Below, piece by piece: positions 8,851 to 48,062 of a stretch of 64,000 nucleotides of DNA. The position numbers and the translations under genes were made by a program. Position 1 is the first letter of the stretch. Each line of letters starts with the position of its first letter. The notes under the pieces were generated by a model. That model saw only the letters and a list, made by a program, of their open reading frames with translations, had not been told where the DNA came from and made no database searches. Source of the stretch: Sphingobium sp. YR768 (GTDB lineage Bacteria > Pseudomonadota > Alphaproteobacteria > Sphingomonadales > Sphingomonadaceae); the NCBI RefSeq assembly GCF_900111125.1, contig NZ_FOGE01000011.1, positions 1-64,000 on the forward strand, read 5' to 3'.

Positions 8851-10995
8851 ATGCGTTTCACTTCAGCCGCCCTGCTGCTGGCAGGCAGCATCCTTGCGAC
8901 CCCAGCCATGGCGCAGACGGATGCTGCGCCAGCACCCGACGCGTCGGACCGTTTTTCGCTGGGCCAGATCATCGTCACAGCGCCCCGCGCGCAGGGAATC
9001 GAAATCGACAGCAACAGCCTGTCTTCGGACGCCATCTATACCTTCAGCCGCACCGCACTGGACGATGCCGTCAATCTGATGCCCGGCGTTTCGGCCGGCA
9101 ACAGTGGCGGCACGCGCAACGAACGGCTGGTCTTCGTGCGCGGTTTCGACCGGTTTCAGGTTCCTCTCTCGATCGACGGCATCCGCGTCTATCTGCCGGC
9201 GGACAACCGGCTGGACTATGGCCGCTTCCTCACCACCGACATCGCCGAGGTGCAGGTGGCGAAGGGCTATGCCTCCATACTCGACGGCCCCGGCGCCATG
9301 GGCGGTGCGATCAATCTCGTGACGCGCAAGCCCACCAAGGAACTGGACATCGACGTGCGCGGCACGGTCAATTTCGACAATGATACCGATTATGCCGGTT
9401 ACTCCACCTCTGCCATGGTCGGGACGAAACAGGTTAATTGGTATGCGCAGGCCAGCTACGCCCGCAGCTTTACCGACCATTGGGATCTGCCCAACGATTT
9501 CACGGCGAAAGTGCCGACGCTGGAAAATGGCGGTGCCCGCGATTTCTCCCGCACCGAAGACTGGCGCGTCAATGCCAAGGTCGGCTTCGCGCCCAACGCC
9601 ACGGATGAATATGCGCTCAGCTACACCTATCAGGAAGGGTCGAAGGGCGCACCGCTCCACATCAGCGACACGGTGACGACGGCGCGTTTCTGGGACTGGC
9701 CGCAATGGAACATCACCAGCCTCTACTTCCTGTCGACCACGGCGCTGGGCGATCGTGCGACGCTCAAGACCCGCGCTTATTATAACCAGTTCGATTCCAT
9801 ATTGCGGTCCTTCAACGACCGCACCCAGACCACGCAGAGCCGCCCCTATGCCTTCGATTCCCCCTATGAAGATCGCGCCTGGGGTGGATCGGCCCAGCTT
9901 GATTTCGATGTGACGGAGATGGATACGCTGCGCCTCGCCTTCCATTATCGCCATGACAAGCATGTCGAATTCCAGACCAGCTTCTCCACCGCCGGGGTCG
10001 CGACCACCGAGCCGCGCCAGACCCAGACCGAGGAAACCTTCTCCGCCGCGCTGGAAAATGAATTGCGGCTCAGCCCTGACCTGACCTTCACTCTGGGCGG
10101 CAGCTTCGACTGGCGTAACCTGATCAAGGCGCAGGAATATGGCGCCCCGCTCGGCACGTCCGGCGCGTCCGTCCTCTACAACTACCCGCGCCGCGACTCC
10201 GACACCTGGAATTTGCAGGGTCGCTTCGACTGGCAGGCGAGCGACGCGGTGGCGCTACACGCAAGCCTTTCCTCCCGCGCACGCTTCCCGACCATCTTCG
10301 AACGCTTCAGCCAGCGCTTCAACACCGCCATTCCCAATCCCGATCTGAAGGCGGAACGGGCAACCAATGCGGAAATCGGCGGAAGCTGGAGCAGCGGCCC
10401 GGTCCGGGTCGAAGGCGCGCTCTTCTACAGCTGGGTACGCAACGCCATCTTTGGCGTAGCGACCCCGGCCTATCCCTGCACCGCATCGACCACGCCGCCA
10501 GCCGTCCCGACCGCAGGCTGCGTCCTCACCAACCTGACGCAGAGCCGCAATGTCGGCAAAGGCGAATATTATGGTGTGGAACTGTCGGTCGCCGCCACCA
10601 TCCTGCCGGGGCTGGATGTCGGCTTCAACTATACCGGGATCAAACGCGATCTCGATTATGCCGCCAACCCCGCCTTCCGCCCGACTGGCGTGCCGACACA
10701 CAAGGGCTTCGCCTATCTGGACTGGGCGCCAATCGAGGGGCTGCACATAGTCCCTAATGTCGACCTCGCCTCGAACAGATGGACGCTGTTCACCGCAACG
10801 CCGGCTTCCGCTGCGCAGGTCTATTATCGCACCGGCGCCTATGTGAATGCGGGCCTGCGCGTCGATTATGCCCTGACGCCGCAGATCGACATCGGCGTGG
10901 GCGGCCGCAATCTGCTCGACGATTATTACACGCTGACCGACGGCTTCCCCGAACCGGGCCGCACGCTCTTCGCCAGCGTCCGGGTCCATTACTGA
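8851..10995 (+). CDS. TonB-dependent outer-membrane receptor
   Basis: A 714-residue receptor with signal peptide MRFTSAALLLAGSILATPAMAQ. The plug domain spans about 40-165 and contains VFVRGFDRFQVPLSIDGIR and AEVQVAKGYASILDGPGAMGG-type blocks. A 22-strand barrel follows, ending in VHY with the terminal aromatic needed for Bam insertion. The AIYTFSRTALDDAVNLMPG region is the usual start of the plug. It is divergent from the MauG-like pair across 75 bases, suggesting a shared task such as metal or metal-chelate uptake. The substrate cannot be told from sequence. Start ATG follows AGGGGG. Confidence 0.9.
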   Translation: MRFTSAALLLAGSILATPAMAQTDAAPAPDASDRFSLGQIIVTAPRAQGIEIDSNSLSSDAIYTFSRTALDDAVNLMPGVSAGNSGGTRNERLVFVRGFDRFQVPLSIDGIRVYLPADNRLDYGRFLTTDIAEVQVAKGYASILDGPGAMGGAINLVTRKPTKELDIDVRGTVNFDNDTDYAGYSTSAMVGTKQVNWYAQASYARSFTDHWDLPNDFTAKVPTLENGGARDFSRTEDWRVNAKVGFAPNATDEYALSYTYQEGSKGAPLHISDTVTTARFWDWPQWNITSLYFLSTTALGDRATLKTRAYYNQFDSILRSFNDRTQTTQSRPYAFDSPYEDRAWGGSAQLDFDVTEMDTLRLAFHYRHDKHVEFQTSFSTAGVATTEPRQTQTEETFSAALENELRLSPDLTFTLGGSFDWRNLIKAQEYGAPLGTSGASVLYNYPRRDSDTWNLQGRFDWQASDAVALHASLSSRARFPTIFERFSQRFNTAIPNPDLKAERATNAEIGGSWSSGPVRVEGALFYSWVRNAIFGVATPAYPCTASTTPPAVPTAGCVLTNLTQSRNVGKGEYYGVELSVAATILPGLDVGFNYTGIKRDLDYAANPAFRPTGVPTHKGFAYLDWAPIEGLHIVPNVDLASNRWTLFTATPASAAQVYYRTGAYVNAGLRVDYALTPQIDIGVGGRNLLDDYYTLTDGFPEPGRTLFASVRVHY

Positions 10996-11115: not shown

Positions 11116-11997
11116 ATGTCGACGGCGTCCGTCCCCAGCTTCTATCTATACGGAGAGCCGCAACGCAGCGTCGCGGAAGGCTTCGTCCATGTCGAAAGCC
11201 TGGACGACCGATCCCGTCCCAGCGAATGGACGATCCGCCCGCATGTCCATCGCGATCTCAACCATATCATCCTGATCGCGCAGGGCGGCGGCGCGATGCA
11301 GGCGGAGGCGGCGCAGGTCAGTTTCGACGCCCCATGCCTGCTGCTGATCCCGGCCGGCATCGTCCATGGCTTCAGCTGGCACAGCGAATCGCGCGGGCAT
11401 GTCACCACCATTGCCGATTCCTATCTGCGGCATCTGATCGGCCGCGACATCGACCTCGCGCCCCTGTTCGCACGCCCCCATGCCGTCGCCCTGCCGCACG
11501 AAGAGGGCGACACAGCTGAAGAGATTATCGATCGCATGGCCAGAGAATTGGGCTGGGCCGGCCCCGGTCAACGCGCCGCAATCGAATCCGCGCTGCTATC
11601 GCTGATGGTACTGGCGCTGCGCCACACGACGCTGACTGATGCGACGCAACCCGGAACCGCGCGCCAGACCGCATTGGTCGCCCGCTTGCGCGAACGAATC
11701 GAACAGCGCTTCCGCCAGCGCGAGCCGGTGTCGGTCCACGCCAAGGCGCTCGGCACCAGCCTTACCGCCTTGCGCCAGGCCTGCGCGCGTGTCGCGGGCA
11801 GTTCCCCCGCACAGATGCTGGATGATCGCAGCCTGCTGGAGGCCCGCCGCCTCCTGCTCTATTCACAAATGTCGGTGGCGGACATCGCCTATGCCGTGGG
11901 CTTTGAAGATCCGGCTTATTTCTCGCGCTTCTTTGCCCGCCATGTCGGACAACCCCCCCGCGCCTATCGCGCCGCACGCGAGCGGTGCCAGCCATGA
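11116..11997 (+). CDS. AraC-family regulator, PobR-like
   Basis: A 293-residue transcription factor. An N-terminal cupin ligand-binding domain (about 15-125; HVHRDLNHIILI and PAGIVHGFSWH are the paired beta-barrel motifs) precedes a C-terminal AraC double HTH (about 195-290). The second helix pair is SVADIAYAVGFEDPAYFSRFF. This architecture is that of PobR, the 4-hydroxybenzoate-responsive activator of pobA. The assignment is likely but pobA lies 8.6 kb away on the other strand. It overlaps the next small gene by four bases. Confidence 0.75.
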   Translation: MSTASVPSFYLYGEPQRSVAEGFVHVESLDDRSRPSEWTIRPHVHRDLNHIILIAQGGGAMQAEAAQVSFDAPCLLLIPAGIVHGFSWHSESRGHVTTIADSYLRHLIGRDIDLAPLFARPHAVALPHEEGDTAEEIIDRMARELGWAGPGQRAAIESALLSLMVLALRHTTLTDATQPGTARQTALVARLRERIEQRFRQREPVSVHAKALGTSLTALRQACARVAGSSPAQMLDDRSLLEARRLLLYSQMSVADIAYAVGFEDPAYFSRFFARHVGQPPRAYRAARERCQP

Positions 11998-12191
11998 GCG
12001 ATGAAATCCGCCATATCCTCGACCGGCTACGCACCCCGCAGGACAATATCGTCACCCGCGCCCGCCATATTGTCGAATGCCATGTCCCGCCCGAACGACG
12101 CGGCCCCGGCTGGGAACGACATTGGCGCGAACTGGAGGCCTATCTTGACCTGCCGGGTCATTGGTCTGCAAAGGACGGCAATGACGAGTGA
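11994..12191 (+). CDS. Small hypothetical protein (65 aa)
   Basis: A short protein of mainly charged and amphipathic helix, with a HILDRLR start and a central HIVECHVPPERRGPGWERHWRE-type segment. It starts in ATGA overlap with the AraC regulator stop and overlaps the next small gene by eleven bases, so all three are translationally coupled. The tight overlaps and the lack of a competing frame support it as real. No function is recognised. Confidence 0.55.
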   Translation: MSDEIRHILDRLRTPQDNIVTRARHIVECHVPPERRGPGWERHWRELEAYLDLPGHWSAKDGNDE

Positions 12192-12405
12192 AGGGATGAT
12201 CGACCTGCTGGTGGCGCGATTGCTGCGCGACCATGGCAAGAGCAAGCATCATTGGCGCAAGGCGATTGGCCCGATCCGCCTCTATAGCCGGACTACCCAT
12301 CCTCATTGCAATTGGGCCGCGGCGCCGACCGGCAGCATCCGCGACGTGGCGCTGATCGAAGACCTGCTCGACGATCTGCGCTTCACCCATCCCATACTTG
12401 CCTGA
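12181..12405 (+). CDS. Small hypothetical protein (74 aa)
   Basis: A basic 74-residue protein (MTSEGMIDLLVARLLRDHGK...) whose start lies inside the end of the preceding 65-residue gene. Downstream residues include KHHWRKAIGPIRLYS, a His/Arg-rich stretch, and an acidic C-terminal helix (IEDLLDDLRF). The start could also be the ATG five codons later. It is the last gene of the AraC-regulator operon, just before the terminator shared with ligC. Function unknown. Confidence 0.5.
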   Translation: MTSEGMIDLLVARLLRDHGKSKHHWRKAIGPIRLYSRTTHPHCNWAAAPTGSIRDVALIEDLLDDLRFTHPILA

Positions 12406-12444
12406 TAAAGAAAGGGCGCGGCCCGCTGTTGCGGCCACGCCCTT
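12403..12444 (-). terminator. ligC operon terminator
   Basis: A 12-bp stem (12412-12423 with 12433-12444, one G-T/A-C mismatch) lies downstream of ligC. On the minus strand it is followed by TTTCTTTATC, a good intrinsic terminator. It also separates the convergent plus-strand small genes. Confidence 0.75.
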
Positions 12445-12471
12445 CCCTGCGATCCCGAAGGGATGGCTGGC

Positions 12472-13410
12472 TTAGCCGAGCTGCGTTTCCAGCTCGCCCA
12501 GCACGCGATAGCAATCGAACACCTTGGCGACGCTCGAATTAGGATCGCGGCCTTCGCGGATCGCGCTGATGAATTCGCGGTCCTGCAATTCGATACCATT
12601 GTTGGAGACGGCGACGCCGGCCAGATCCACCGGTTCTTCCTTGCCGTTCACCAGATCGTCGTAACGCGCGATATAGGTGTCGGTATCGCCGATATAGCGG
12701 AAGAAGGTGCCGAGCGGGCCATTATTGTTGAACGACAGCGACAGGGTGCAGATCGCATCCGTCTCACTCTTCAACTGGATCGACATGTCCATGGCTATGC
12801 CCAGTTCCGGATGGATCGGCCCCTGCATGGCATGCGCCGACACGATCTTGCCCGCCTGATAAGCGAACAGGTCGACCGTGTGCGCGGCATGATGCCACAG
12901 CAGATGATCGGTCCAGGACCGCGCTTCACCCTTCGCATTGATATTCTTGCGACGGAAAAAATAGGTCTGCACATCCATCTGCTGAACATTGAATTCGCCC
13001 GCCTTGATGCGATTGTGGACGAACTGATGCGACGGGTTGAAGCGGCGGGTATGGCCGACCATGCAGGTCAGGCCCGTTTCCTGCTGCTTGGCGAGCACCG
13101 CCTGTGCGTCCTTCCAGCTGTCGGCCAGCGGAATCTCGACCTCTACATGCTTGCCCGCGTCCATACAGGCGATCGCCTGCGCGGCATGCATCTGGGTCGG
13201 TGTACACAGGATCACCGCATCCACGTCGTCGCGCGCCAGCGTTTCGTTGAGGTCGGTGGTGACATGGCCGATGCCATATTTCTCCGCGACCTTCTTCGTC
13301 GCTTCCAGTTCGCGACCGATGATCGAGGTGACGGTCACGCCGTCGATATTCTTGAGGCCATCAAGATGCTTTTCGCCAAAGGCGCCGGCACCGGCCAGGG
13401 CAATACGCAT
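12472..13410 (-). CDS. ligC: 4-carboxy-2-hydroxymuconate-6-semialdehyde dehydrogenase
   Basis: Cytoplasmic NADP-dependent enzyme oxidising the PCA ring-cleavage product (as its hemiacetal) to 2-pyrone-4,6-dicarboxylate. The 312-residue sequence is a Gfo/Idh/MocA-type dehydrogenase: Rossmann motif GAGAFG at 7-12, then the EVEIPLADS segment in place of the usual EKP, and a C-terminal alpha/beta domain with LLWHHAAHTVDLF. The strong resemblance to Sphingobium LigC and its position after ligB make the call secure. It is separated from ligB by 89 bases holding a GC-rich hairpin and is the last gene of the ligJABC unit. Confidence 0.95.
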   Translation of the reverse strand: MRIALAGAGAFGEKHLDGLKNIDGVTVTSIIGRELEATKKVAEKYGIGHVTTDLNETLARDDVDAVILCTPTQMHAAQAIACMDAGKHVEVEIPLADSWKDAQAVLAKQQETGLTCMVGHTRRFNPSHQFVHNRIKAGEFNVQQMDVQTYFFRRKNINAKGEARSWTDHLLWHHAAHTVDLFAYQAGKIVSAHAMQGPIHPELGIAMDMSIQLKSETDAICTLSLSFNNNGPLGTFFRYIGDTDTYIARYDDLVNGKEEPVDLAGVAVSNNGIELQDREFISAIREGRDPNSSVAKVFDCYRVLGELETQLG

Positions 13411-13434
13411 GGACCAAACTCCGTACTATAAAAG

Positions 13435-13456
13435 CCCCTCCTCTTTAGGGGAGGGG
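13435..13456. repeat. GC-rich palindrome between ligB and ligC
   Basis: Inverted repeat CCCCTCC / GGAGGGG with an 8-base spacer, followed by GTTTGGGGTGGGG. It looks like a dispersed intergenic palindrome common in sphingomonad genomes (from memory). In an mRNA it would form a hairpin that could set the ligB:ligC ratio. Confidence 0.5.
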
Positions 13457-13499
13457 TTTGGGGTGGGGTGAGGCACGCGCCAAGGCTCGCCTCGATGAA

Positions 13500-14843
<1,344 letters not shown>

Positions 14844-43609: not shown

Positions 43610-43981
43610 TTATCGGACCTTGAAGCTGTAGCCGCCCTCCACCTTGTGCTGGTCGGCACCAACGACATGCCATTTCAGGTCATAGGTGCCGGCGGGCAAG
43701 GCGCGGGGGAAAGTCAGGATCATGGTCTTGCCCTCGACCATGGTCTTGAACCCCTTGATCGGCATGGGTTCATGGTTGGCCATGCCCGGCATCCCGGTCA
43801 TGGTCAGGTCCGCGCCGCTCAAGGCCGCCTGAAAGGTTTCGGAAAAGGTCAGCGTCATTTTTGTCGGCTTGGCCACGGTAGCATCGGCGGCCGGCGTGGA
43901 CGACAGCAATTTGCTGTGTGCGCTCGCCACGCCGGGCAGCAACATGGCGACGGCGGCGGCGGTCAGGAACAGACGGTTCAT
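43610..43981 (-). CDS. copC: Copper resistance protein CopC
   Basis: A 123-residue periplasmic copper carrier with signal peptide MNRLFLTAAAVAMLLPGVASA, leaving mature His1 (HSKLLSSTPA), the canonical Cu(II) ligand. The C-terminal DQHKVEGGYSF adds the Asp and His of that site. A GMPGMANHEPM Met/His patch may be a Cu(I) region. The start at 43981 follows a GGAG-type site. It is divergent from the metal-sensing sigma cassette, so both probably respond to the same signal. No copD follows in the window. Confidence 0.9.
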   Translation of the reverse strand: MNRLFLTAAAVAMLLPGVASAHSKLLSSTPAADATVAKPTKMTLTFSETFQAALSGADLTMTGMPGMANHEPMPIKGFKTMVEGKTMILTFPRALPAGTYDLKWHVVGADQHKVEGGYSFKVR

Positions 43982-44124
43982 GGCAATCTCCTGCAAGGAT
44001 AGTTGCAGACAGTTACGCACGGGCTTGCCCGCCCCCTCGCGTCATGCGCATATTTTTTACCCTGCCAGATTGAGGGATGGAAGCGTGCCATGCGTATGCT
44101 CGGTCAGGAATGGAGAATGACGCG

Positions 44125-44379
44125 ATGACCGATCTGGATCAGATGCTGGACGCCGTGCGGGCAACGCCCACCGATGCGCGGCTGGCGGGCATGGATGATG
44201 CTGTGCTGACCGGCATGGCCGATCGGCGTGAACGGATGACCGCGCGCCGCAGCCTGATGCTGGCGGGCATCGTGGCGATCGGCATCGGCTGGACCGGCAG
44301 CATCCTGCCTGCCGCCCCGGCGCAGGCCATGCCGATCGGCATGTCGGACTATGCGCCCTCTCGCCTGCTTGGCCAATGA
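44125..44379 (+). CDS. CnrY-like anti-sigma membrane protein
   Basis: An 84-residue protein with a charged cytoplasmic N-terminal half (LDQMLDAVRATPTDARLAGMDDAV...), one transmembrane helix (SLMLAGIVAIGIGWTGSIL) and a short periplasmic tail (MPIGMSDYAPSRLLGQ). This is the size and layout of CnrY, which binds the sigma factor CnrH and releases it on a signal from CnrX. Sequence alone would not give the call; it rests on the gene order Y-X-H and the four-base overlap with the CnrX-like gene. GGAGAA precedes the ATG. Confidence 0.65.
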   Translation: MTDLDQMLDAVRATPTDARLAGMDDAVLTGMADRRERMTARRSLMLAGIVAIGIGWTGSILPAAPAQAMPIGMSDYAPSRLLGQ

Positions 44380-44822
44380 ACGCCCGCCGCTATCTGCTCG
44401 TCGCACTGGTCGCCTTTGCCGCATCGCTGGCGGCGGTGCTGGTGACACGGCTCTGGTTCGCGCCCGAACCGCGCGTCGAAAGCGAAGTGCATGCACTGCT
44501 CCATCAACGGCTGACCCTGGACGCGGCGCAGGAACAGCGCATCCACGCCCTGGAAACCGCCTTTGCCACCCGGCGCGCGACGCTGGAGGCGGAAATGCGA
44601 GCAGACAATCAAAGGCTGGCCGACGCGATCGCCGCCGAACATGGCTATGGTCCCAAGGTGGCGGAAGCGGTCGATCGATCGCACCATGTGATGGGCCAGC
44701 TGCAAAAGGACACGCTGCAACATATTTTCGCGATGCGCGCAGTGCTGCGTCCTGATCAGGCGGCGCAGTTCGATGCTGCCATCGTCAAGGCGCTGACCCA
44801 GCCCGTCCCGTCCACCCGATAA
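44376..44822 (+). CDS. CnrX-like periplasmic metal sensor
   Basis: A 148-residue protein with one N-terminal membrane anchor (LLVALVAFAASLAAVLV) and an all-helical periplasmic hairpin domain of the metal-resistance (CnrX/CzcE-ZraP-like) type. The metal ligands of Cupriavidus CnrX (His42, His46, Glu63, His119, Met123) are all present as His39, His43, Glu60, His116 and Met120, each shifted by exactly three. A second His pair (SHH near 103) is extra. The neighbours copA, copB and copC suggest copper as the signal. Coupled to the anti-sigma gene by an ATGA overlap. Confidence 0.8.
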   Translation: MNARRYLLVALVAFAASLAAVLVTRLWFAPEPRVESEVHALLHQRLTLDAAQEQRIHALETAFATRRATLEAEMRADNQRLADAIAAEHGYGPKVAEAVDRSHHVMGQLQKDTLQHIFAMRAVLRPDQAAQFDAAIVKALTQPVPSTR

Positions 44823-44823
44823 G

Positions 44824-45381
44824 GTGAACGATCCGAACCCCGACGATCGCGTGCTGGTCGCTCACGCGCTGGCCGGGCAGCAATCGGCTTATGCCGCGCT
44901 GATGCGGCGGCACCGGGATGCAGTGTGGAGGCTTGCGCGCGGTCATGTCGGCGACGGGGATGTCGCACTGGACATTACGCAGGAAAGTTTCGTTTCGGCC
45001 TTCGCCGCCCTTGCCCGCTATGATGGCACGCGATCATTCCGTGTCTGGATTGCCCGCATCGCCCTCAACAAATGCCGCGATTGGGCACGCCGTCGTGCCG
45101 TCCGCGGTTTCTTCACCTTCGCCCGGCCGATCGACGATGCGCTCCATATCGCCGATAGGGCTGAAACGCCGGAAGAGGCGCTGCAATCGCAGCACGCCCT
45201 CGCCCGGATCAATGTCGCCATCGCATCGCTGCCCGCCAATCTGAGAAATGTGCTGCTGCTCCGCACGATCGAACAGATGAGTCAGGCGGAGGCGGCGCAG
45301 GTGCTGGGCATTACGGAAAAAGCAGTCGAAACCCGACTCTATCGCGCGCGCGCCAGACTGGCGGAAATTTTGAGGGATTGA
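44824..45381 (+). CDS. ECF sigma factor, CnrH-like
   Basis: A 185-residue extracytoplasmic-function sigma factor. Region 2 spans about 15-85 (AYAALMRRHRDAVWRLARGH, DITQESFVSAFAALARYDGTRSFRVWIARIALNKCRDWARRR) and region 4 about 125-182 (LPANLRNVLLLRTIEQMSQAEAAQVLGITEKAVETRLYRARARL). It starts with GTG one base after the stop of the CnrX-like gene; no strong ribosome site is seen, so translational coupling is expected. It would activate copper genes when CnrX/CnrY release it, including probably its own operon, copA/copB and copC. Confidence 0.9.
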   Translation: MNDPNPDDRVLVAHALAGQQSAYAALMRRHRDAVWRLARGHVGDGDVALDITQESFVSAFAALARYDGTRSFRVWIARIALNKCRDWARRRAVRGFFTFARPIDDALHIADRAETPEEALQSQHALARINVAIASLPANLRNVLLLRTIEQMSQAEAAQVLGITEKAVETRLYRARARLAEILRD

Positions 45382-45405
45382 GTCCCCATCCGCGTATGAA
45401 GGGGC

Positions 45406-47145
45406 ATGCTTTCCTCATCTCTCGATCGCCGCACCCTGATCAGGAGCGCCGCTGCCATAACTCTGGCTGGTGCCTTCCCTGCCTGGGCGCGCAGCGGTAC
45501 CACTGGCCTCTTGTCTGCTCCCAGCGTCTTGTCCGGCGACAGCATCGCGTTGACGGTCGGTGAAAGCCATTTCGGCACTGGCGGTCGGTCGGCCCACGCC
45601 ATCACTATCAATGGCACCATCCCCGCCCCGTTGATCCGCCTGAAGGAAGGGCAGCAGGTCCGCATCGCCGTCACCAACCGGCTGAAGGAGGATACGTCGA
45701 TCCACTGGCACGGCCTGATACTGCCCTTCCAGATGGACGGCGTTCCCGGTGTCAGCTTTCCCGGCATCCGTCCCGGCGAAACCTTCACCTATGACTTCCC
45801 GATCCGCCAGTCCGGCACCTATTGGTATCACAGTCATTCGGGCATGCAGGAAGCGATGGGCCATTATGGTCCGATCGTCATCGATCCCGCCGGTGCCGAT
45901 CCGGTCCAGTCTGATCGCGAACATGTGATCGTGCTGGCCGACTGGTCGTCAGTCCATCCGCATGTCCTGCTCAAGCGGCTCAAGCAGATGGGCGGTTACT
46001 ATAATATGCAGCGCCAGACGCTGGCCAGCCTACTCAAAGGCAAGGATCAGTCGCTCAAGGATCGGATGGAATGGGGCGCGATGCGTATGGATCCCACCGA
46101 TATTTCGGACGTGACCGGCGCGACCTACAGCTTTCTGGTGAATGGCCATGGCACGGCGGAAAACTGGACTGGCCTGTTTGTGCCCGGTGAGCGGGTCCAG
46201 CTGCGCATCATCAACGCTTCGGCCATGACCAATTTCAATGTCCGCTTACCCGGACTTCCCATGACCGTGGTCCAGTGCGACGGCCAGCATGTCCAGCCGG
46301 TCGAAACAGACGAATTCCAGATCGGCATCGCCGAAACCTATGACGTGATCGTCCAGCCGACCGAGGCCAAACCCTATGGCCTGATCGCCGAAGCGATCGA
46401 CCGGTCGGGGCAGGTCCGCGCGACGCTCGCGCCACAGATCGGCATGGTCGCACCCATTCCCGATCTGCGTCAGCGCCCGCTACTGACCATGAAGGATATG
46501 GGCATGGACATGTCGGGGATGGACATGGGGCAAGCGGGCGTGATCGATCTCAGCCAGCCTGCCAATGACAGCATGTCCGGCCATAGCATGAAGATGCTCG
46601 ATCCCTCGGTCGCACCCAATGTCCCGATGGGGCCGGGCGTTGCGACCCTTTCCGCCATGCCCGCCGATCGCACGGCCGATCGCCCGACCGGTCTGGAGGA
46701 TGTCGATCATCGCGTCCTTACCTATGCCGACCTGCGCGCGCTGGAACCGAATAGCGACACGCGCACGCCCACCCGCACGCTCGACATCCATCTGACCGCC
46801 AATATGGAACGCTATATGTGGTCCTTCGACGGTGTGAAGCTGTCCGACGGCGCGGAACGCATCCCCTTCCGGCACATGGAACGGGTGCGGGTAAACCTGA
46901 TCAACGACACGATGATGCCGCATCCCATCCATATTCACGGTCATTTCTTCCAGCTCGTCACTGGTGAGGATGCAGCCCATCATCCGCGCAAGCATACGGT
47001 GAATGTCCTGCCCGGCGGGAAAGTCAGCTTTGACCTGACGGCCGATGCGATCGGCGACTGGGCCTTTCATTGCCACATGCTGATGCACATGCATGCTGGC
47101 ATGATGCGTGTCGTTACCGTCCGTCATGAGGAGGAGGCTGCATGA
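45406..47145 (+). CDS. copA: Multicopper oxidase CopA
   Basis: A 579-residue periplasmic copper-resistance oxidase. The twin-arginine signal is at the N-terminus (SLDRRTLIRSAAA). Three cupredoxin domains carry the copper sites HWHG (100-102), WYHSHSG (142, 144), HPIHIHG (506-511) and HCHMLMHMHAGMM (555-566), giving type 1 and the trinuclear type 2/3 centres. A Met-rich loop (MKDMGMDMSGMDMG, ~364-377) binds Cu(I) as in Pseudomonas CopA. It lies 24 bases after the sigma gene and overlaps copB by four bases. Confidence 0.95.
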   Translation: MLSSSLDRRTLIRSAAAITLAGAFPAWARSGTTGLLSAPSVLSGDSIALTVGESHFGTGGRSAHAITINGTIPAPLIRLKEGQQVRIAVTNRLKEDTSIHWHGLILPFQMDGVPGVSFPGIRPGETFTYDFPIRQSGTYWYHSHSGMQEAMGHYGPIVIDPAGADPVQSDREHVIVLADWSSVHPHVLLKRLKQMGGYYNMQRQTLASLLKGKDQSLKDRMEWGAMRMDPTDISDVTGATYSFLVNGHGTAENWTGLFVPGERVQLRIINASAMTNFNVRLPGLPMTVVQCDGQHVQPVETDEFQIGIAETYDVIVQPTEAKPYGLIAEAIDRSGQVRATLAPQIGMVAPIPDLRQRPLLTMKDMGMDMSGMDMGQAGVIDLSQPANDSMSGHSMKMLDPSVAPNVPMGPGVATLSAMPADRTADRPTGLEDVDHRVLTYADLRALEPNSDTRTPTRTLDIHLTANMERYMWSFDGVKLSDGAERIPFRHMERVRVNLINDTMMPHPIHIHGHFFQLVTGEDAAHHPRKHTVNVLPGGKVSFDLTADAIGDWAFHCHMLMHMHAGMMRVVTVRHEEEAA

Positions 47146-48062
47146 AGCGCCTGATCCTTCCCCTGCTGCTGGCCAGCGGCACCGTCTCTGCGCAGGCGCA
47201 GACCATGGACCACAGCCAGATGGACCATGGCGGGCATCAGATGCCGTCAGCACAGGATGAGGCGGCGCAAGATCAGCCGACGAATGCCCATGCTGGCCAT
47301 GGATCGCCGGCAACCGAGGCGATATCGCAGGGCGTAGCGCCGCCCGTTCCCGCCGATCATGCGGCGGATTCTCTTTATGATCCGGCTGTCATGGCGCGCG
47401 CCCGCGCTGCGATGGTCAGGGAAAGCGGCGGCATGACCTTTTCCCAACTCATGATCGATCGTCTGGAATATCGCGCGCAAAAGGGCGGTGAAGGCTATCA
47501 TTGGGAAGGCGAGGGTTGGATCGGCGGCGATATCCATCGTCTGGCCATCAAGTCCGAAGGGGAGGGCGATGTCGGTGGCCGCCTTGAAAGCGCCGAAGTT
47601 CAGGCGCTCTACAGCCGGGCCATCGACCCGTGGTGGAATATCGTCGCCGGGGTTCGCCAGGATTTCCGTCCGCAGCCCCAGCGCAGCTACGCGACCATCG
47701 GCATCGAAGGCCTCGCGCCTTACTGGTTCGAGGTGGAGGCGCAGGCTTTCCTGTCCGACAAGGGCGACGCCCATCTGCGGCTGGAGGGCAGCTATGATCA
47801 GCGTTTGACCCAGCGTCTGATCCTGCAACCGGCGGTGGAAGTGAATATCGCCGCGCAGGATGTCTCCGACATCGGGATCGGCAGTGGCCTCTCCAATACC
47901 GAAATAGGCCTGCGTCTGCGCTACGAATTCGCGCGCGAATTCGCCCCCTATGTCGGCATCAATTGGGAACGCAGCTTCGGCGATACGGCCCGTTATGCGC
48001 GGGCGGCAGGGGACAGGGCATCCGTCGCCAATCTGGTCATGGGCATTCGCTTCTGGTTCTGA
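47142..48062 (+). CDS. copB: Outer-membrane copper resistance protein CopB
   Basis: A 306-residue outer-membrane protein with a signal peptide and a His/Met-rich N-terminal segment (MDHSQMDHGGHQM, then HAGHG). A beta-barrel of about 200 residues follows, beginning SQLMIDRLEYRAQKGGEGYHWEGEGWIGG and ending VMGIRFWF with a terminal aromatic. It follows copA with an ATGA overlap, the standard copAB pair, and probably sequesters or exports copper at the outer membrane. Confidence 0.93.
   Translation: MKRLILPLLLASGTVSAQAQTMDHSQMDHGGHQMPSAQDEAAQDQPTNAHAGHGSPATEAISQGVAPPVPADHAADSLYDPAVMARARAAMVRESGGMTFSQLMIDRLEYRAQKGGEGYHWEGEGWIGGDIHRLAIKSEGEGDVGGRLESAEVQALYSRAIDPWWNIVAGVRQDFRPQPQRSYATIGIEGLAPYWFEVEAQAFLSDKGDAHLRLEGSYDQRLTQRLILQPAVEVNIAAQDVSDIGIGSGLSNTEIGLRLRYEFAREFAPYVGINWERSFGDTARYARAAGDRASVANLVMGIRFWF

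Follow-up and report, generated by a model that had tools for sequence, protein, structure and literature searches.

A regulatory cassette resembling CnrYXH, the cobalt/nickel (Co/Ni) switch of Cupriavidus metallidurans plasmid pMOL28, lies among copper resistance genes in a 64,000-nucleotide stretch of Sphingobium sp. YR768 (contig NZ_FOGE01000011.1), hereafter the window. The arrangement of its genes, promoters, and sensor residues suggests, with a probability of roughly 80%, that the cassette is a form of the CnrYXH switch dedicated to copper; that copper is the signal is inferred from sequence. The cassette belongs to a known module, and its distinguishing characteristics are a whole conserved branch tied to copper, a promoter set of its own, and a two-residue signature in the sensor. 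Coordinates below are relative to the window, and YR768 is referred to as the own genome. The genes and predicted promoters are as follows.

43610..43981, minus strand: copC, periplasmic copper-binding protein, divergent from the cassette (PF04234; NF033814, 114.2 bits against a cut-off of 95)
44013..44039, minus strand: predicted sigma-type promoter of copC, CGAGGG-N15-GCGTAA (by motif; predicted start near 44005)
44071..44097, plus strand: predicted sigma-type promoter of the cassette, TGAGGG-N15-GCGTAT (by motif; predicted start near 44105)
44125..44379, plus strand: putative CnrY-type membrane anti-sigma factor, 84 amino acids, one hydrophobic segment (by position, size, and a weak CnrY profile match)
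44376..44822, plus strand: CnrX-type sensor, 148 amino acids, N-terminal membrane helix and periplasmic helical bundle (PF13801, E 2.2e-16)
44824..45381, plus strand: CnrH-type extracytoplasmic function (ECF) sigma factor, 185 amino acids, GTG start (PF04542/PF08281; best solved-structure match CnrH)
45371..45397, plus strand: predicted sigma-type promoter of copA-copB, TGAGGG-N15-GCGTAT, overlapping the sigma gene at its 3' end (by motif; predicted start near 45405)
45406..47145, plus strand: copA, periplasmic multicopper oxidase (TIGR01480, 785.2 bits against a cut-off of 479)
47142..48062, plus strand: copB, outer-membrane copper resistance protein (PF05275, E 5e-93)

The three regulatory genes are co-directional and span 44125-45381, followed by copA-copB, with copC on the opposite strand. 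The anti-sigma and sensor genes share 4 bases, and a single base separates the sensor stop from the sigma start; the cnrYXH genes of pMOL28 likewise overlap slightly. The original prediction, made from the letters of the sequence, had described a cnrYXH-like order of anti-sigma, sensor, and sigma followed by and divergent from copper genes. Open reading frames (ORFs) and family matches bear out this order, most weakly for the anti-sigma factor, and TIGR01480, PF05275, and NF033814 identify copA, copB, and copC. The cnrCBA efflux genes were not found downstream of the window cassette, where copA and copB stand instead, and no histidine kinase or response regulator lies between copC and copB, although a two-component system encoded elsewhere in the genome may still act on the cluster.

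That the sigma factor drives the cop genes had been assumed at the outset, and the assumption now has support from promoter motifs upstream of the operon, of copC, and of copA. A mirrored pair of YGAGGG-N15-GCGTAW sites is found upstream of cassettes: among 63 distinct regions with a divergent copC, the motif occurs in the forward direction in 48, in reverse in 53, and in both in 40 (shuffling dinucleotides 50 times gave 0.12, 0.06, and 0 on average). The 68 cop-type regions in which no divergent copC was detected have the motif forward in 39, in reverse in 20, and in both directions in 11, and the five cnr regions have it forward in two and in reverse in none. Before copA, the strict motif is present in 76 and the loose motif in 102 of 104 distinct sigma-copA junctions, with shuffle means of 0.02 and 0.48, respectively. 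In the own genome, the exact sequence TGAGGG-N15-GCGTAT occurs in only two places, both within the cassette. The broad pattern has six matches there, three of them in the cassette (two for the reversed-pattern control); the others, on contigs C38, C55, and C80, were treated as chance because they are at about the control level and no copper gene was recognised nearby by eye. A regulon search of this genome permitting one or two mismatches was too noisy to use (161 forward and 157 reverse matches against 104 and 101 in the control).

The form of these sites agrees with the mapped starts of cnrY and cnrC on pMOL28 (PMC9045368). Relative to the mapped starts, CCGTAT lies at -13 to -8 for both genes, CGAGGG begins at -35 of cnrC, and CAAGGG lies upstream of cnrY; this match argues that the window promoters are of the CnrH class. 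Start sites in the window were predicted from the same offset. The one for copA would fall one base ahead of the ATG at 45406, which would leave that transcript almost leaderless in this genome; leaders are longer in many relatives. A 15-base spacer is the rule, since it yields 49 matches in ten genomes (control 4), whereas a 16-base spacer yields three in eight genomes (control 1), all in genome G489 and one of them at a cassette of that genome.

The putative sigma factor has CnrH as its closest relative among solved structures (4cxf, 2.4e-30, 108.7 bits), and the next, SigW, scores 66.6 bits, 42 bits lower. It has one cysteine in its 185 amino acids and lacks the cysteine-rich C-terminal extension and the CXC motif that characterise CorE. 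The window anti-sigma protein has no match in Pfam or NCBIfam, and its hhalign comparison to CnrY is weak (Prob 82, E 1e-5, over 38 N-terminal residues only). A C-terminal APSxLL motif is nearly invariant in this protein family, with P78 present in 130 of 131 rows (the window protein being entered twice); its anti-sigma function is putative. On plasmids pISP0 and pBSY17_1, the sensor is annotated as a "periplasmic heavy metal sensor" and the anti-sigma protein as a "hypothetical protein."

The resemblance of the sensor to CnrX is, by sequence comparison, far beyond chance: in a search of solved structures, only CnrX (best E 2e-19) and NccX (1e-17) fall below E 0.1, and a chance likeness was rejected on this search. 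All five metal ligands of CnrX (H42, H46, E63, H119, and M123) align with H39, H43, E60, H116, and M120 of the window sensor, which upholds the constant offset of three that had been noticed from the letters. An AlphaFold model of the sensor (mean predicted local distance difference test score 79.9, 16 sequences) has a long N-terminal helix and a helical bundle. It matches CnrX best (Foldseek E 1e-6 to 2y3d; VIA-align Z 13.5 to 2y3h and 3epv), followed by NccX (VIA-align Z 11.2, root-mean-square deviation 3.7 over 141 residues). Because helical bundles score high against one another, and the structure tool warns below about Z 13, the sequence match outweighs the fold match. Matches of the model to CpxP, Spy, and STV (Z 8-10) were set aside as within the range expected for helical bundles. 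According to its title, PDB entry 3epv covers apo and copper-bound CnrX; as CnrX has been crystallised with copper, copper in a site of this type is not odd chemistry. PMC7689651 reports that M123 of CnrX serves Co/Ni signalling and that zinc-bound CnrX is non-functional.

Within the window's family, 60 of 149 genomes have the sensor; with CnrX as the query, it occurs in 47 of 119 genomes of the family of G489, probably Caulobacteraceae judging from the grouping of its sensors with named Phenylobacterium loci in the tree. Wider samples yielded 7 of 385 genomes of the class and 18 of 398 of the phylum, counts that include the own genome in each and a few weak non-member matches; the weak matches in G149, G711, and G782 were rejected as members. 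A CnrX query of the family of G396 found 6 of 200 genomes, and these have cnrYXH with cnrC downstream. A further 79 plasmid records match the sensor, including six from Cupriavidus with cnr-type sensors, and 40 of the 79 are typed as conjugative.

Gene linkage was counted with one row per distinct sensor (n=140 including the window, duplicates removed). Two proteins with PF13801 and no sigma partner (L141, L142) were kept among the 140 but are not members, and L108, read in two frames, accounts for two incomplete rows. Downstream on the same strand, copA or copB follows 111 of the 140 sensors and cnr efflux genes follow five; among the other 24, cop genes are near but otherwise placed in five and neither type was found in 19, many of these stretches being only 3.4 kb long. 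Linkage to cop genes occurs in the window's family, the family of G489, and two annotated plasmids. In the two plasmid copies (L242 on pISP0, L243 on pBSY17_1), copD adjoins copC, and there is no copD beside copC in the window; the pISP0 copy additionally has cueR and a P-type ATPase. At locus L003, similarity to copA is split over 9040-10443 and 11990-13684, which suggests an insertion or duplication. G489 also has a cassette (L151) in which sigma similarity is split into two separate stretches, and the first 1.8 kb of its contig C1 (L149) contains two sensor copies in opposite orientation (241-561, minus; 1432-1752, plus) that are identical over the matched stretch.

The copper-linked and cnr-linked sensors differ at fixed positions outside the shared ligands. 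Of the distinct sensors, 109 of 111 cop-linked ones and all five cnr-linked ones keep the full set of five ligands. Positions 103 and 106, in contrast, are histidine and methionine in all 111 cop-linked sensors, including that of the window, and glutamate and alanine (E106 and A109 of CnrX) in all five cnr-linked sensors. Among the remaining 24 rows, 21 have histidine and methionine at these positions; the exceptions are the two non-members and half of the broken sensor. In total, six residues reach at least 95% fixation in the cop set and never appear in the cnr set: L46, Q52, H103, M106, Q128, and F132. The original prediction had posed a choice between copper sensed through a Co/Ni-type site and a signal that differs from the regulated metal. 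This choice was too narrow: the conserved Co/Ni-type ligands stand, while the copper-linked sensors carry six fixed differences, two of them new histidine and methionine residues. Both kinds coexist in genome G489, which has a cnrYXHCBA cluster (L148) as well as cop-linked cassettes (L150, L151); the difference between sensors therefore does not follow the host.

In the predicted structure, H103, M106, H116, and M120 lie on one long helix, with H103 and M106 10-13 residues before H116; from this spacing, the two residues could not simply join the CnrX site without another helix or a dimer partner. A tentative proposal, which we consider possible but rather less than an even chance, is that a copper-specific site is made or completed by H103 and M106, and that this site converted an ancestral Co/Ni sensor of the CnrX type to copper sensing (or the conversion ran the other way), a natural swap of metal specificity in one scaffold. 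In the same proposal, the sigma factor runs a compact regulon for copper, joined in some genomes by a dedicated family of TonB-dependent receptors.

The extent of such a regulon was surveyed in ten hand-chosen cassette-bearing genomes with the pattern TGAGGG-N15-GCGTAW, the reversed pattern serving as the control. By coordinates, 27 of the 49 matches are at cassettes, one is beside a sensor fragment, and 21 are elsewhere. Off-cassette sites precede a copper P-type ATPase (one; TIGR01511, 598 bits against 397), copA-type multicopper oxidases (two), copC (two), a flavoprotein divergent from copC (two), DUF411 proteins (two), a DUF2231 protein (one), one family of TonB receptors (four), and another TonB receptor (one). 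Family scans covered 12 target proteins; for the second DUF411 protein, the second flavoprotein, and a copC truncated at a contig end, near-identical sequence was the basis of assignment by eye. No Co/Ni pump was recognised among the motif targets in the ten genomes, and in the own genome neither of the two heavy-metal resistance-nodulation-division pumps above the cut-off is at a broad-pattern site. The four related TonB-dependent receptors (L252, L253, L254, and L259, in G107, G057, and G122) are about 900 amino acids long and 74-88% identical, with the motif 85-127 bases upstream; judged from sequence, they are possibly a copper-regulated outer-membrane transporter. The DUF411-type proteins (HRDPGCGCCEKW) in L250 and L254, from two genomes, have the motif 41-52 bases upstream, and of these the L250 protein was scanned.

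A mechanism consistent with this arrangement can be outlined. At rest, the one-pass anti-sigma protein and the CnrX-type sensor would keep the sigma factor at the inner membrane. Excess periplasmic copper would bind the sensor through H39, H43, E60, H116, and M120, with H103 and M106 perhaps tuning or adding to the copper site, and the anti-sigma protein would then release the sigma factor. The sigma factor would guide RNA polymerase to the three YGAGGG-N15-GCGTAW promoters, those of its own operon (giving positive feedback), of copC, and of copA-copB, and the multicopper oxidase, CopB, and CopC would then detoxify periplasmic copper. In this outline copper as the inducer, its binding, the anti-sigma role, and transcription from the three sites are all predictions.

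Several observations weigh against a copper-dedicated switch. The cnr-linked sensors form one clade (support 100/100, long branch of 2.21), and the split between cop and cnr sensors is close to a single old divergence. The correlation with H103 and M106 thus amounts to roughly one evolutionary event and is no proof of a functional role; the two residues may be structural or face the anti-sigma protein. Since the five ligands are those of the Co/Ni sensor, the sequence leaves room for Co/Ni sensing. Within the stretches examined, 24 of the 140 sensors are linked to neither cop nor cnr genes in the downstream arrangement, although 21 of these still carry H103 and M106. Even the loose forward motif is absent from 28 of 131 cop-type regions, and the profile link of the anti-sigma protein to CnrY is weak. 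By eye and without family scans, five of eight longer stretches (L035, L084, L111, L112, L115) have non-cop genes after the sigma gene, a transposase in the case of L115, and thus the module is not tied to cop genes everywhere. Six of the 21 off-cassette sites have no convincing target; among them are a site 196 bases from a PAS histidine kinase, one at a flagellin-like gene (by eye), and one with no ORF start within 400 bases.

The strongest alternative is that the sensor still answers Co/Ni or several divalent metals and that induction of the cop genes is a general metal response. The identical spacing of the five CnrX ligands would fit such a sensor, as would the generic name given to the protein in the plasmid records, but motif targets in the own genome and the ten others include copper genes and no identified Co/Ni efflux operon. 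The presence of distinct sensor types within G489, which also has its own cnrYXHCBA, and the fixed differences at H103 and M106 likewise count against this alternative, which is considered unlikely. It is very improbable that the sensor binds no metal in vivo and that the module responds to damage that copper does to the envelope or to proteins: the fold does resemble the envelope-stress proteins CpxP and Spy (Z about 8-9, common for helical bundles), but the five metal ligands are conserved across deep divergence, and metal-binding CnrX structures are closest in both fold and sequence. Least credible is an incidental neighbourhood, in which the sigma factor mainly controls other genes and CueR or a two-component system runs the cop genes; many OmpR-type regulators in the own genome (50 TIGR01387 matches, none over the cut-off), the cueR on one cassette-bearing plasmid island, and the cassettes elsewhere that lack cop genes after them speak for it, but the own genome has the exact motif nowhere outside the cassette, and most sigma-copA junctions carry the motif, along with the mirrored copC promoter. 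Housekeeping or two-component control was considered as the leading account and retained as no more than a minor alternative.

What decides the metal to which a sensor responds has long been asked, and CnrX is among the well-studied periplasmic cases. The copper-linked sensors offer a large natural family that has the CnrX fold and the same five ligands, apparently serves a different metal, and stands six fixed positions apart. As there are only six such positions, and two are histidine or methionine, specificity is testable by few substitutions. If copper is the signal, the cassette would commonly regulate copA-copB in sphingomonads, given the frequency of the sensor in the window's family.

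Other copper-related ECF sigma factors have been described. CorE of Myxococcus xanthus (PMC10141476 and PMC8999054) is likewise a copper-related ECF sigma factor that drives a multicopper oxidase gene; however, CorE senses copper via its own cysteine-rich C-terminal extension, whereas the window sigma factor has no such extension and has a separate sensor and anti-sigma protein. In the SigAb-AabA-AabB system of Acinetobacter, the sigma factor is stimulated by copper and the anti-sigma factor was modelled to bind like CnrY, but the direct regulon consists of SigAb itself, relA, and a small RNA, with metal genes affected indirectly, and CnrX has no occurrence in the main text of the account (PMC12153292). 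SigF-NrsF of Caulobacter also has a copper-induced ECF regulon, but with a different anti-sigma factor and targets that include DUF692 and DoxX proteins and others, and the accessible text of PMC8224329 makes no mention of a CnrX-type sensor. Across the available text of these four accounts, no CnrX-type copper sensor is described, and a literature search, with most subscription papers outside its reach, found no description of a copper-linked CnrYXH.

Two close known systems belong to Co/Ni resistance. NccX, of NccYXH, was compared at the level of the sensor, not the operon, and is alike in homology (E 1e-17) and fold (Z 11.2), but its PDB name is that of a nickel-cobalt-cadmium resistance protein. 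CnrYXH shares with the window cassette the gene order, close packing, sensor fold, five ligands, CnrH-like sigma factor, and promoter class; in both, one promoter precedes the regulatory genes and another the first structural gene. The targets differ, however, being copA-copB and copC in the window and cnrCBAT in CnrYXH, and the window sensor has H103 and M106 in place of E106 and A109 of CnrX, as well as L46, Q52, Q128, and F132. The window promoters have GCGTAW at -10, compared to CCGTAT for cnr, with the spacing between boxes one base shorter, and the window cassette has an extra, divergent promoter.

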